A stretch of DNA of 16,445 nt, taken from NCBI GenBank assembly GCA_022567775.1, contig JADFGH010000004.1:1-16445 (forward strand), written 5' to 3'. Each line of letters begins with the position of its first letter. Position 1 is the stretch's first letter. Positions 931 through 4,771 of the stretch are shown here, piece after piece. A program made the position numbers and the translations under genes. The notes under the pieces were generated by a model, which was not told where the DNA came from, ran no database searches, and was given only the letters and a program-made list of their open reading frames with translations. The DNA is from Pseudomonadota bacterium (GTDB lineage Bacteria > Pseudomonadota > Gammaproteobacteria > Steroidobacterales > Woeseiaceae).

Positions 931-1419
931 ATGAAAGTGTCAATGATCGTCGCCGTATCGGCGAATAACGTCATTGGCGTAGATGGTGGCCTGCCGTGGC
1001 GCTTGTCGGAGGACCTCCGACGATTCAAGGAAATTACGCTGGGCAAACCCATGATCATGGGCCGGCTGACTTTCGAATCTATTGGCAAGGCTCTGCCCGG
1101 CCGACGCAGTATTGTCATTACCCGGCAGGCGAATTACGAAGCAGAGGGATGTGACGTTGTTACCACAATGGATGCGGCCCTCGAGCTCGCAAGTGATGCT
1201 GACGAGGTCATGATTATTGGCGGCGGCAAGGTCTATGAGCAATTGTTGCCGATGACAGATCGTATCTATCTGACGAGAGTGCATGCAGATTTTGACGGCG
1301 ATACATTTTTTCCGGAAATCAGGGAAGACGAATGGCAGATTGTGTCGAGTGAACCATTGCCGTCGAACGACGAGCGTCCGTTTTCGATCAGTTTTCAGAC
1401 CTTGGAGCGCATCTCATGA
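931..1419 (+). CDS. folA: Dihydrofolate reductase
   Basis: This 162-residue protein is a chromosomal-type dihydrofolate reductase, which reduces dihydrofolate to tetrahydrofolate with NADPH. Visible hallmarks are the N-terminal MIVAVSANNVIGVDGGLPW, the substrate-binding acid D28 in LPWRLSEDLRRFK, the cofactor segment GKPMIMGRLTFESIG, the LPGR motif, and VMIIGGGKVYEQLLP near residues 92-106. The length equals the usual 159-165. It starts six bases after the thyA stop with no clear Shine-Dalgarno site, so translation is probably coupled to thyA. Its stop codon TGA overlaps the ATG of a short downstream ORF in an ATGA arrangement. No resistance-type feature such as a plasmid Dfr signature is seen. 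Confidence 0.97.
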   Translation: MKVSMIVAVSANNVIGVDGGLPWRLSEDLRRFKEITLGKPMIMGRLTFESIGKALPGRRSIVITRQANYEAEGCDVVTTMDAALELASDADEVMIIGGGKVYEQLLPMTDRIYLTRVHADFDGDTFFPEIREDEWQIVSSEPLPSNDERPFSISFQTLERIS

Positions 1420-1538
1420 ATCGCCAACTGCGGCGGGTTCTTACGGGAATTTTTTGTTTATCCGGACGCCTGAAAATTGTAGAAACGATTCGTAGGAGCT
1501 CGCCCCAGCGAGCGACAAACATTGAAGGGCATGTTTAA
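1416..1538 (+). pseudogene. Short ORF coupled to folA, possibly a truncated gene
   Basis: An ATG at 1416 overlaps the folA stop (ATGA) and has GGAG at 1404-1407, eight bases upstream, which is a good ribosome-binding site. The reading frame gives about 40 residues beginning MNRQLRRVLTGIFCLSG, a basic then hydrophobic start like a signal peptide or membrane anchor. After about 25 codons the frame enters the REP-like element at 1491 and ends at TAA 1536-1538, inside the palindrome. I do not recognise the protein. The well-placed start suggests a real gene once followed folA and lost its remainder when the repeat arrived. It could also be a short peptide or chance. Confidence 0.35.
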
Positions 1539-1620
1539 AAAACATGCCCTTCAATGTTTGCAAAGGATGAATCATCCACCGTCAGTTAACGAAGATCGCC
1601 CGCTGGGGCGGGCTCCTACG
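1491..1620. repeat. REP/REPIN-like element: inverted repeat pair around a 21-bp palindrome
   Basis: The outer arms are 1491-1514 and 1597-1620. Each begins or ends with CGTAGGAGC/GCTCCTACG and contains CGCCCCAGCG/CGCTGGGGCG; they are reverse complements with two mismatches. Between them is a perfect inverted repeat, 1516-1536 against 1540-1560, with only AAA as loop, and a smaller one, GGATG-AAT-CATCC, at 1565-1577. The GTAGGAGC core resembles REP sequences of Pseudomonas and Xanthomonas genomes that RAYT transposases are thought to mobilise in inverted pairs. It lies between the convergent ends of the folA and kynU units and may stop transcription or protect 3' ends. The palindrome lacks a U tail, so it is not a typical intrinsic terminator. 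The kynU stop codon is inside the right arm. Confidence 0.8.
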
Positions 1621-2890
1621 CTTCGCGCAACGCAATCTCGAGCCGCTCCGTAAATTCATAAACGTCTTCGAAACCGTTGTAGAGAGGTACTGGCGCTACG
1701 CGAATGACATCTGGTTCACGCCAGTCCACGGTGATATTGAGCGCCTCAAGCTTCCTGAAAACCGATTTGGCATCCACACTGTCATCACAAATGACAAGTG
1801 ACAACTGGCAGCCGCGCGCGTCTTCCGGCGTGATGATCTCAAGGCGTCCGGAGAAGCCCTGTTGCAGCAAAAAGTCCAGGTATCCGGTCAGCTCGATTGA
1901 CTTCGCCCTGAGTTTGTCGATGCCAGCTTCCGCAAAAATCTCGAGTGATGCCAATAATGGTGCATGCGCCAGGATTGCCGGGCAGCTAAGTTGCCAGGCA
2001 TCGACTCCTTGCGCGGGCACGAACGTCGGCGACATCCTGAATCGTGTCGCTTCTTCATGGCTCCACCAGCCAAGCAGCAGTTTGTTGTCTGCGGAATCCA
2101 GGTGCCGTGAATGTACGAACGCGCCGCCGACCGAACCGGGACCGGTGTTCAGATATTTGTACGTGCACCAAATCGCGAAATCCGGTGCCCAGTCGTGTAA
2201 CGCCAAAGGCACATTGCCAATTGCGTGGGCGAGGTCGAGCCCAAGAGCGCATCCTGTGGCGTCGGCCAGCTTGCAGAGTTCGGCCATTTCAAGTACCTGG
2301 CCATTGTAATATTGCACACCGGGCAACAGCAGCAACGCAATACTCTCGCCTTGCTCGTCAAGCAGTGCTTCGAGATCAGCCATGTGAAGTTTATGGTCAT
2401 CGCGCGGTTTCCACTCGAGCAATGCGTCATCCGGATCAAAACCGTGCAGGCGAATCTGCGACATCACTGCAAAACGATCAGATGGAAACGCAGTCGACTC
2501 AATGACGATCTTGTACCGCTCTGCGTCAGGACGATAGAAGGTCGTCATCATGAGGTGCAGGTTGACCGTCAGGGAATTCATCGCGACGACTTCGTTTTCG
2601 TTTGCGCCAGTCAAATATGCGAGGCCCCCCGTTGTCTCCCGGTGATACTGCATCCACGGGCGGCGCCCGTGGAAGTGGCCATCCACACACATATCGGCCC
2701 ATTTCTCCAGTTCTTCCCCGATGTACTGCACCGCAAGATTTGATTGCAGGCCGAGAGAATTTCCGCAGAGGTAGATGTTCCGTCTGCCGTCTTTGTCCAC
2801 AGGGAAATTAAAATAGTCGCGAAACCGGCGCAACTCGTCTGCCGCATCGAGTGATTGTGCGAATTCACGTGAAGCTTCGAAATCTGTCAT
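1616..2890 (-). CDS. kynU: Kynureninase
   Basis: KynU is a PLP enzyme that cuts kynurenine to anthranilate, or 3-hydroxykynurenine to 3-hydroxyanthranilate, plus alanine. The 424-residue length fits the family. Visible motifs are YLCGNSLGLQ (40-49), HFHGRRPW (72-79), AMNSLTVNLHLMM (103-115), FPSDRFAV (135-142), LPGVQYYNGQ (189-198), the PLP-contacting D219 and H222 in GLDLAHAIGN, and the Schiff-base lysine K245 in CTYKYLNTGPGS. The ATG overlaps the stop of the ACMSD remnant (ATGA), and AAGGA at 2897-2901 gives a ribosome-binding site six bases upstream. With haaO just upstream, the likely substrate is 3-hydroxykynurenine. The TAG stop at 1616-1618 is formed by the REP-like element, so the last codons may have been reset by that insertion. 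Confidence 0.97.
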   Translation of the reverse strand: MTDFEASREFAQSLDAADELRRFRDYFNFPVDKDGRRNIYLCGNSLGLQSNLAVQYIGEELEKWADMCVDGHFHGRRPWMQYHRETTGGLAYLTGANENEVVAMNSLTVNLHLMMTTFYRPDAERYKIVIESTAFPSDRFAVMSQIRLHGFDPDDALLEWKPRDDHKLHMADLEALLDEQGESIALLLLPGVQYYNGQVLEMAELCKLADATGCALGLDLAHAIGNVPLALHDWAPDFAIWCTYKYLNTGPGSVGGAFVHSRHLDSADNKLLLGWWSHEEATRFRMSPTFVPAQGVDAWQLSCPAILAHAPLLASLEIFAEAGIDKLRAKSIELTGYLDFLLQQGFSGRLEIITPEDARGCQLSLVICDDSVDAKSVFRKLEALNITVDWREPDVIRVAPVPLYNGFEDVYEFTERLEIALREA

Positions 2891-2988
2891 TCAAAATCCT
2901 TGCGATTGAGGGCCAGCCATTCCAGTGCAGCATTGGCGAGGAGAGTAGAGCGCGTATTGATGTGCGTGTGAATTTCCATCTTGAGCAT
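2887..2988 (-). pseudogene. Remnant of ACMSD (2-amino-3-carboxymuconate-6-semialdehyde decarboxylase)
   Basis: The gap between haaO and kynU holds a 33-codon frame. It starts MLKMEIHTHI, which lines up with the N-terminus of ACMSD (as I recall the human protein, MKIDIHSHI), including the metal-binding HxH. It continues NTRSTLLANA and then ALEWLALNRKDFE, which lines up with the ACMSD C-terminus (human form as recalled: AGNALAFLGLERKQFE). The roughly 300 residues between are missing, and the two ends are in one frame. The TGA at 2887-2889 overlaps the kynU ATG. I infer an internal in-frame deletion of an ACMSD gene that once lay between haaO and kynU. The peptide cannot be an active decarboxylase. 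The scar may persist because it supplies the kynU ribosome-binding site and coupling. An assembly gap closed wrongly would look the same. Confidence 0.72.
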
Positions 2989-3006: not shown

Positions 3007-3525
3007 TCAAGATTCTGGCTCAGGCATCACGGTGCCGCATTTTTCGCAGGTCCGGTTCTCCGCGGAAGCGTAGAAACGGTCAAAGATGGGCGGCAACTGA
3101 CCGACGATATCGCTAATGTACAAAAACTCTTCATATAATTTGTGATTGCAGTTATCACAGAACCACATGAAGCCATCGAGTTCTTCCGGCAAACGCTTAC
3201 GCTCAATGACCAGACCGACCGATTCGGCAAAGCGCTGCGGAGAATGTGGAACTCTCGGTGGCAATAGCAGAATTTCGCCTTCGCGAATCGGAATATCATT
3301 GCGCCCGCCATCCTGTATCGTCTGCAGCAACATATCGCCTTCAAATTGGTAGAAGAATTCCGGGCCCTCGTCGTAGTGAAAATCCTTGCGCGAGTTGGGG
3401 CCACCGACAACCATCACAATGAAGTCGTCTTCTTCAAATACCTGCTGGTTACAAACCGGCGGTTGCAGCAGGTGTCGGTGTTCGTCAATCCACTGCTGGA
3501 AATTGAATGCCATCAGAGACTGCAT
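3007..3525 (-). CDS. haaO: 3-hydroxyanthranilate 3,4-dioxygenase
   Basis: HaaO is a cytosolic Fe(II) cupin enzyme that opens the ring of 3-hydroxyanthranilate to 2-amino-3-carboxymuconate semialdehyde (ACMS). With the start at 3525 the product is 172 residues. Iron ligands are H50, E56 and H94, and substrate residues R46, R98 and E108 are in place, each one position before those of the Cupriavidus metallidurans enzyme as I recall it. The C-terminus has the rubredoxin-like pairs CDNC (123-126) and CEKC (160-163) of bacterial HaaO. The frame opens at 3558, but the start at 3525 has GAGGA about eight bases upstream and gives the family N-terminus (MAFNFQQWIDEH follows). It starts 49 bases after the apaH stop and precedes the ACMSD remnant and kynU. 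Confidence 0.96.
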   Translation of the reverse strand: MQSLMAFNFQQWIDEHRHLLQPPVCNQQVFEEDDFIVMVVGGPNSRKDFHYDEGPEFFYQFEGDMLLQTIQDGGRNDIPIREGEILLLPPRVPHSPQRFAESVGLVIERKRLPEELDGFMWFCDNCNHKLYEEFLYISDIVGQLPPIFDRFYASAENRTCEKCGTVMPEPES

Positions 3526-3574
3526 TTTCCGTTCCTCAGTTTTTTCTCGCATCCGCAATGCATTCTCTGGAATA

Positions 3575-4390
3575 TCATTTTTTGCATCGTACCTGGATTA
3601 CTGTCGGACCCTTGTCCAGCCGCACAGCCGTCAACTGCCGCCCCCAGACACACCCCGTGTCCACGGCAATCAGGTCATCGTTGACAATCAGGCCCAGGGC
3701 GCTCCAGTGGCCGCAGACGATGCGTGTACCCCTCCATTTTGCATCCTCCACGGCAAACCACGGAAGCAGGCCCTTTGCTGCATCGTCAGGCGGGCCCTTG
3801 TGCGAAAAATCAAGAGCCCCGCCTTTCCGGATCATGCGTATGCGCGTGAGGCTGTTGACGATGAAGCGACGGCGCTGGTTGCCAGTCAGTTTGTCAGACC
3901 ATTTGCGCGGTTTATCGCCGTACATTTCCTCGAGAAAATCGACGTAGGAGTCGCTTCGCAATGCTTTTTCGAGTTCTGCGGCGCACCCGAGGGTATCGTC
4001 GACAGACCACTGTGGTGGCAGGCCAGCGTGCACCATCAAGGTATTCAGGTCGGCACTGTAATGTGCGAGCGGACGAAATCGCAGCCAGTCGATCAACTCG
4101 CCGCAATCGTCCTTCGTGAGGATTTTCTTCAGCGACTCATAGTTGTTTCCTGCCTGCCTGATGTCATTGGCCAATGCGATGAGGTGTAAATCATGATTGC
4201 CGAGAACCGTAATCGCGGCCTCACCGAGACTTCTTACGTAGCGCAGCGTCTTGCGTGATTTCGGGCCGCGATTGACGAGGTCACCCGTAACCCACAGGCG
4301 ATCCCTATCTGGATCGAAAGCAATTTTGTCGAGCAGGCGCCGAAATGGGTCGTAGCAGCCTTGCAGGTCGCCTATTGCGTACTGAGCCAA
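3575..4390 (-). CDS. apaH: Diadenosine tetraphosphatase (symmetrical)
   Basis: ApaH splits Ap4A and related dinucleoside polyphosphates into two ADP; recent work on the family also gives it a role in removing Np4 caps from mRNA. The protein is 271 residues with the metallophosphatase motifs GDLQGCY (7-13), GDLVNRGP (36-43) and GNHDLHL (64-70), then HAGLPPQW and GHW further on. The first motif has Q where many phosphatases have H (GDxHG), but GDLQG is common in ApaH and is not a defect. The start is TTG at 4388-4390, directly after the apaG TAA with no base between, so translation depends on coupling with apaG. It is the last gene of the classical lptD-surA-pdxA-rsmA-apaG-apaH run. Confidence 0.96.
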   Translation of the reverse strand: MAQYAIGDLQGCYDPFRRLLDKIAFDPDRDRLWVTGDLVNRGPKSRKTLRYVRSLGEAAITVLGNHDLHLIALANDIRQAGNNYESLKKILTKDDCGELIDWLRFRPLAHYSADLNTLMVHAGLPPQWSVDDTLGCAAELEKALRSDSYVDFLEEMYGDKPRKWSDKLTGNQRRRFIVNSLTRIRMIRKGGALDFSHKGPPDDAAKGLLPWFAVEDAKWRGTRIVCGHWSALGLIVNDDLIAVDTGCVWGRQLTAVRLDKGPTVIQVRCKK

Positions 4391-4771
4391 TTAATGTAAT
4401 ACGCCGGGAACGGCGAGAGTAAAGGGTGGAATCGGCGCATCGAAGCTTGTGCCGTTATCGGTTTCCATGCGATAGCTGCCCTGCATCGCGCCGACAGGCG
4501 TTTCCAGCACCGCAGCACTTGAATAGCGAAACGTTTCGCCCGGTTTCAGATGAGGCTGTTCGCCCACAACACCGTCGCCCGTTACTTCCTGAACCTTGCC
4601 ATTTGCGTCGGTAATTATCCAGTGGCGGCTGACTAACCTGGCGGGGAGATCGCCGAGATTTTCGATCGTTATCGTGTAGGCGAAAACATACCTGCCGATG
4701 TCCGGTTCGGACTGGTCAACAACGTATTTTGTAACAACCTCGATCCTGATTTCGTACTTATTACTTTCCAT
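4391..4771 (-). CDS. apaG: ApaG domain protein (Co2+/Mg2+ efflux-associated family)
   Basis: ApaG is a small fibronectin-III-like beta-sandwich protein; its biochemical role is not settled, though Salmonella ApaG (CorD) has been linked to cobalt and magnesium efflux. The product from the ATG at 4771 is 126 residues, the family's usual length. Hallmarks include YVFAYTITIENLGD, the segment RHWIITDANGKVQEVTGDGVVGEQP with its conserved GxGVVGxQP element, LKPGETFRYSS and GAMQGSYRM. The frame is open up to 4918, but that extension lies within rsmA and is not family sequence. It starts 40 bases after the rsmA stop and abuts apaH. Confidence 0.95.
   Translation of the reverse strand: MESNKYEIRIEVVTKYVVDQSEPDIGRYVFAYTITIENLGDLPARLVSRHWIITDANGKVQEVTGDGVVGEQPHLKPGETFRYSSAAVLETPVGAMQGSYRMETDNGTSFDAPIPPFTLAVPGVLH

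Follow-up and report, generated by a model that had tools for sequence, protein, structure and literature searches.

An ACMSD gene remnant between haaO and kynU marks a kynurenine operon probably stripped of its degradative branch

ACMSD decides the fate of ACMS, which is either burnt or turned to quinolinate for NAD; ACMS, the product of HaaO, cyclises spontaneously to quinolinate unless it is decarboxylated by ACMSD. Bacteria that lead tryptophan through quinolinate to NAD without an ACMSD are described in a passage of PMC4217691 that refers to earlier work (Kurnasov et al. 2003; Lima et al. 2009), and a passage of PMC6742747 presents AmnE of Pseudomonas sp. AP-3 as a 2-aminomuconate deaminase of the RidA family. 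A term search found neither tryptophan nor kynurenine in PMC12175321 or PMC7082342, our literature search returned nothing linking the Woeseiaceae with kynurenine or Woeseia with kynureninase, and among the papers found on ACMSD, bacterial NAD and operon remnants no title or abstract start reports an ACMSD scar. The novelty of the case described here is modest: deletion remnants as such are commonplace, and this one belongs to a pathway and a family on which our searches found nothing in print.

The window, i.e. the whole stretch of 16,445 nucleotides that was analysed, comes from a member of the Woeseiaceae (contig JADFGH010000004.1 of assembly GCA_022567775.1) and carries intact haaO and kynU genes between apaH and folA (Table 1). 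Both encoded proteins match solved structures over nearly their whole length and score above curated cut-offs, with HaaO reaching E 1.4e-53 against a 3-hydroxyanthranilate dioxygenase in the PDB; its ATG at 3525 was chosen by comparison with relatives, the open frame extending further to a TTG at 3558. In related genomes the fullest version of the locus reads apaH, RidA, haaO, ACMSD, kynU, KMO-like gene, folA, and apaH lies upstream of the operon in every locus that could be read far enough, except in G034 and G049. A near full-length ACMSD gene, at 70% identity or more, is present in 23 of the 60 genomes compared (the window's own genome included among the 60), in all 23 cases between haaO and kynU, while G007 and G023 have ACMSD pieces cut by contig ends. 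The relatives' enzymes are 335 to 342 residues long (18 loci measured), mostly begin with LKIDIHTHI or LKVDIHTHI, end in G004 with ADLLADSALEWLALNRKDFE, and find their best PDB match in human ACMSD (E 8e-138 over 335 residues). Among the 120 ACMSD matches listed, out of 7,978 in the protein database, three are labelled Woeseiaceae.

Table 1. Features of the kynurenine locus, numbered by position in the window.
Feature	Position	Strand	Basis
folA, downstream neighbour, end of locus	931..1419	plus	
REP-like palindrome	1486..1625	none	kynU-folA interval, where many relatives carry a KMO-like gene
kynU, kynureninase, intact	1616..2890	minus	TIGR01814 430.4 bits (cut-off 246.4); PDB kynureninase E 7e-111
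ACMSD gene remnant, 33 codons, in frame	2887..2988	minus	sequence comparison with relatives' ACMSD
ACMSD last 23 codons and stop	2887..2958	minus	21/23 residues as in P0115
ACMSD codons 1-10 (MLKMEIHTHI), two changes: I to M, D to E	2959..2988	minus	
haaO, 3-hydroxyanthranilate 3,4-dioxygenase, intact	3007..3525	minus	NF009763 267.2 bits (cut-off 220)
RidA-family gene scar, last 8 codons and stop (CIADARKN, stop)	3536..3562	minus	comparison with G007
apaH, upstream neighbour of the operon	3575..4390	minus	

At the place of ACMSD the window has a frame of 33 codons, which by sequence comparison is an ACMSD gene remnant left by an in-frame deletion. Ten N-terminal ACMSD codons are fused in frame to 23 C-terminal ones, and the translation runs MLKMEIHTHI, then NTRSTLLANAALEWLALNRKDFE and a stop (full reading MLKMEIHTHINTRSTLLANAALEWLALNRKDFE). 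The first-pass annotation had read the two ends of ACMSD into this frame and had proposed that the body of the gene was lost with the frame kept; this is borne out exactly at 2988-2887 on the minus strand, and relatives have an intact ACMSD at the same place. On alignment both ends of the peptide match ACMSD: eight of the ten N-terminal residues agree with the consensus, and the C-terminal part is closest to that of the database relative P0115, NTRSNLLANAALEWLALNRKEFE, with 21 of 23 residues identical (the best among the 120 relatives listed of 7,978 matches). The joint falls between HTHI and NTRS, at window positions 2959/2958, and is placed there because P0115 also has N-T-R-S. Scored against the start and the end of ACMSD together, the peptide reaches 130.7, its residues giving at most 31.8 when shuffled 20,000 times, and a search of the whole genome with a relative's ACMSD independently finds the site of the remnant (E 3.6e-5). 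Neither Pfam nor NCBIfam has a model that reports the 33-residue peptide, as expected for one so short, and a plasmid search with it at the protein level gave no match.

The remnant is not an unaltered copy of the ACMSD start. The third and fourth residues after its first are M and E, where all 120 relatives listed (of 7,978) have I or V and D; these relatives continue with IHTH in 117 cases and VHTH in three. Compared with the relatives' codons, both changes are third-position, residue-altering substitutions, as expected of a remnant start that is no longer under selection. The remnant has thus probably drifted and a fresh misassembly is unlikely, two changes being support rather than proof. 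The metal-binding residues of ACMSD we take to be H6, H8, H174 and D291, and the catalytic residue H224 (relatives' numbering); of the conserved histidines and aspartate only H6 and H8 survive, about 303 of 336 residues being gone. With the rest of the barrel missing from its sequence, the remnant cannot yield an enzyme. Its 3' end is joined to the next gene: its stop codon and the start of kynU overlap in an ATGA (2890-2887), an arrangement found in seven of seven loci examined from the same genus, and a ribosome-binding-like AAGGA lies inside the kept ACMSD codons, 6 bases before the kynU ATG. The ribosome-binding-like site and the ATGA overlap, both of which had been ascribed to the kept end, are present.

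A second scar lies on the other side of haaO. Twelve bases after apaH the window reads TGCATTGCGGATGCGAGAAAAAACTGA, which translates as CIADARKN and a stop and is followed after 10 bases by the haaO ATG; in G007, whose kynU comes closest to that of the window (70%), the RidA gene ends in CIAVARNK and a stop, with the same spacing of 10 bases to haaO. Because both the ending and the spacing match, we read this as a RidA gene deleted down to its last eight codons; in all 13 relatives compared, RidA ends in KCIA plus a variable tail. The G007 gene belongs to the RidA family (TIGR00004 107.0 bits, cut-off 106.25; PF01042) and, judging from its place, is a candidate 2-aminomuconate deaminase of the same degradative branch as ACMSD.

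On the far side of kynU the KMO-like gene is not at its operon place in the window, and a REP-like palindrome is found there. The kynU-folA gap of 196 bases (1420-1615) consists mostly of this element, which contains GTAGGAGCYCGCCCCAGCG and supplies the kynU stop codon in two contigs of the same assembly, C187 and C101; its outer arms of 30 bases (1486-1515 and 1596-1625) are 87% complementary and enclose an inner hairpin with perfect 21-base arms (1516-1536 and 1540-1560). Of 126 loci, four contain an 18-base stretch of the arm, all of them on the assembly's own contigs C187, C101 and C50. Copies were seen in the window at 1486-1625, in L043 (contig C101) at 101-118 and in L102 at 4679-4725, the remaining loci having none. 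G005, G006 and G013, whose operons are otherwise full, likewise have no KMO-like gene in the kynU-folA interval. The label KMO is a name taken from place and pathway, since the KMO-like gene stays below the curated cut-off of every one of the 25 NCBIfam matches listed out of 75 (best VioC, 175.8 against 760).

How the loss of ACMSD is to be understood depends on what the relatives carry. Over the 60 genomes, haaO was found in 40, near full-length ACMSD in 23, KMO in 37 (taken at E up to 1e-30 and including distant types of 37-41% identity), TDO in 41, nadA in 20 (19 over the cut-off, the twentieth being G021, just below it) and nadC in 54. The 24 genomes with both haaO and ACMSD, a set that counts G007 with its ACMSD split by a contig break and omits G023, in which haaO was not found and the end of an ACMSD lies at the edge of a contig, have nadA in two cases (G044 and G057), nadC in 22, KMO in 19 and TDO in 21. 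The first-pass annotation had proposed a pathway switch, in which loss of ACMSD turned a tryptophan-degrading cluster into a source of quinolinate. The drain has indeed been lost, but this loss is probably not what made the cluster a source of quinolinate: 22 of the 24 ACMSD-bearing genomes already lack nadA and 22 of 24 have nadC, so that relatives probably used quinolinate as their NAD source before any loss of ACMSD, which then amounts to the removal of a drain.

Relatives without ACMSD complete the picture. Leaving aside the window's own genome and G034, which has an ACMSD type of 44% identity, 14 haaO-bearing genomes have no ACMSD, and 10 of these also lack nadA, all 10 having KMO, TDO and nadC; G032 (99% complete), with apaH-haaO-kynU-KMO, is an example. 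A route to quinolinate that does without ACMSD is viable among the relatives. Of the 21 ACMSD-bearing loci read far enough on the upstream side, 17 have RidA immediately before haaO, against none of the 10 ACMSD-less haaO loci read (G015, G033 and G035 fall outside the first count and G017, G021, G027 and G036 outside the second), and the joint loss of RidA and ACMSD accordingly fits the loss of one branch. The two genes are not strictly linked, as ACMSD occurs without an adjacent RidA in G025, G029, G031 and G043; in G034 the RidA next to the 44%-identical ACMSD type is 42% identical.

Several further arrangements were observed in passing. Among the 12 genomes of the window's genus, only G003 (75% complete) has nadA, in a nadA-nadC-nadB cluster (G003:C159, L072) whose nadB is cut by the contig end and scores under the cut-off; no haaO was found in this genome, nor a true kynU, its kynU-like matches all being weak, and an aspartate route apparently stands in place of the kynurenine route. 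The place of nadC in G002, between glutaredoxin-like and amidase-like genes (G002:C298 18962-22117, L101), has serine-hydrolase-like and deacylase-like genes. Hybrid clusters of the order nadA, haaO, kynU, KMO, TDO occur in G021:C59 (22682-28077) and G027:C15 (11585-17363), and without TDO in G017:C1; they place both quinolinate routes side by side, and their haaO scores lie below those of the usual type. In G058 the gene between haaO and kynU resembles a cyclase of the kynurenine-formamidase type and is putatively read as such. The kynU genes of G007 and G013, which belong to different genera, are 73% identical and their apaH genes 64%, and kynU may have been exchanged between these genera. 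A KynU scan of genome contigs yielded one Tenacibaculum locus, which was uninformative.

We consider it likely that the window holds the remnant of a Woeseiaceae-type kynurenine operon which lost its degradative branch (ACMSD and RidA) and kept haaO and kynU, leading toward quinolinate. A deletion of about 0.9 kb (estimated as 336 minus 33 codons, or 909 bases) would have taken out the ACMSD body in frame, a separate deletion would have cut RidA to its last eight codons, and the KMO-like gene is gone from its place, where the REP-like palindrome now sits. In both scars it is the 3' portion of the lost gene that survives, lying at the start signals of its downstream neighbour or containing them, and with these ends in place haaO and kynU should still be translatable. 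From the known chemistry, ACMS made by HaaO would close to quinolinate once ACMSD is gone; without RidA the path below would probably be closed too, and the locus would retain only the part that leads to quinolinate, its degradative branch gone. Such a drain-less locus would depend on 3-hydroxykynurenine or 3-hydroxyanthranilate, for which the assembly shows no source. Most likely, then, it is a locus stripped of its drain, with NAD supply as a putative function. More tentatively, the operon may be modular, RidA and ACMSD having been shed as a unit by deletions, the last codons spared for the start signals of the next gene, and a dual-purpose tryptophan pathway trimmed to a quinolinate-only form in which haaO and kynU continue to be translated.

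The strongest competing explanation is that the pathway as a whole is eroding: the species would be losing kynurenine-based NAD synthesis step by step and heading toward a kynU-only state, with haaO a leftover or a detoxification enzyme. It owes this rank to the fact that TDO, KMO, nadA and nadC were not found in the window's own assembly (403 contigs, 83% complete, 3.1% contaminated) and that the place of nadC lies beyond a contig end; the failure to find TDO, KMO or nadC there also weakens the preferred explanation. Beyond these four, the gene search of this incomplete assembly turned up a single match to the nadB model, at 275.4 bits below the cut-off of 452.75, and no NAPRTase-family salvage enzyme, a family with a match in only four of the 60 genomes. 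We did not count the missing nadC as a lost gene: contig C210 covers the flank of nadC but stops within the adjacent amidase-like gene, short of the usual place of nadC, so its non-detection means little. The KMO place in the operon is observed to be empty. In G001, TDO is followed by a flavin-monooxygenase-like gene; the putative counterpart of that gene in the window's assembly, a match of 69% identity, lies on contig C50, with no TDO within 3 kb before it.

Stepwise erosion would also agree with the absence of the KMO-like gene, RidA and ACMSD from one locus, with the existence of kynU-only loci (apaH-kynU-folA) in G016, G020, G022 and G030 (L024, L019, L025 and L021), three of these four genomes having nadA, and with the state of G002, a member of the same genus. 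Here haaO is missing from the locus, where a RidA-ACMSD fusion is found, and neither TDO, KMO nor nadC was found in the genome; its nadC place is assembled and taken by other genes, the KMO place lying beyond a contig end. Against erosion, neither haaO nor kynU is shortened in the window, and both show about the same slow pace of evolution as their counterparts in full-operon genomes. The dN to G004 is 0.118 for haaO (0.126 for that of G007) and 0.278 for kynU (0.234 for that of G007), dS being about 3 or not estimable and dN/dS a rough guide only; from these substitution rates haaO seems as constrained as in G007, and kynU, evolving slightly faster than its G007 counterpart, slightly less. 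Moreover, G006 (94% complete), in which neither TDO nor KMO was found, still keeps RidA, haaO, ACMSD, kynU and nadC, so that missing TDO and KMO do not by themselves mean a dead locus. On balance we regard erosion as possible rather than probable.

The G002 fusion bears on a different reading, namely that the 33-codon frame is a working small gene maintained by selection, for instance one whose leader peptide serves the translation of kynU. In G002:C291 (L037) a frame at 2190-2621 follows apaH, opens with RidA sequence and passes in frame into the end of ACMSD (from about residue 225), and its stop overlaps the kynU start as ATGA. This second, independent deletion, like that in the window, keeps the 3' end of the gene preceding kynU, and in the window the frame, the ATGA overlap and the ribosome-binding-like site have all been kept. 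Two in-frame outcomes would, however, arise by chance about once in nine cases, the start of the peptide has changed, and of the conserved histidines and aspartate of ACMSD only H6 and H8 are left, the rest of the barrel being lost. A working small gene is thus unlikely, while selection for translational coupling behind the in-frame deletions is plausible.

An assembly artefact, either a contig misjoined over an intact ACMSD or two populations mixed in the bin, is very unlikely. The bin does contain a second population, seen in contig C101, whose identity to the window is 87% for thyA and folA and 89% for the 3' end of kynU; its kynU-folA interval likewise has no KMO-like gene. But when the first 70 bases of ACMSD were compared with the last 120 in 10 relatives, exact repeats reached no more than 6-10 bases in any of them, with shuffle maxima of 8-13, and with no repeat beyond chance between the ACMSD ends there is nothing for an assembler to confuse. 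The remnant start is altered at two positions that do not vary in this way in the 120 relatives listed (of 7,978), the contig that bears it also has the RidA scar and the loss of the KMO-like gene, the latter shared with C101, and the reading frame is kept across the joint. A search of the assembly with a relative's ACMSD found no further piece of the gene. Three Amidohydro_2 genes on contigs C351 and C327 were considered as a second ACMSD and rejected, being too dissimilar at 23-31% identity over about 140-220 residues (a range that sets aside short non-significant stretches); one of them, of 359 residues, sits in a cluster that resembles protocatechuate 4,5-cleavage, a putative reading. A chance resemblance of a spacer to the ACMSD ends has a negligible probability, for although the peptide counts 33 residues only and no domain model reports it, the best shuffle scores less than a quarter of the observed value, the remnant sits exactly at the relatives' ACMSD place, and the own-genome search and the P0115 match refute such a reading as well.

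Related bacteria with full, drain-less, eroded and kynU-only states of the operon form a natural series, which lets the trade-off between the NAD route and tryptophan breakdown be tested, and the genome described here has legible scars. Compared with AmnE, the G007 gene that precedes haaO is likewise of the RidA family; its putative role in 2-aminomuconate deamination is suggested by its place. The ends of the remnant match the relatives' ACMSD, itself a full-length match to human ACMSD (PDB 2wm1/4ofc), from which the remnant differs in having lost about 303 of 336 residues. The ACMSD-free route from tryptophan to quinolinate differs in that KMO, TDO and nadC were not found in the 83%-complete assembly of the window; in common with it, the window has haaO and kynU without ACMSD, and ten relatives have TDO, KMO and nadC and no nadA. 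Set beside the Woeseiaceae-type operon of its relatives, the window lacks RidA, ACMSD and the KMO-like gene and bears scars from the first two, while the neighbours, the gene order and the intact haaO and kynU are the same.
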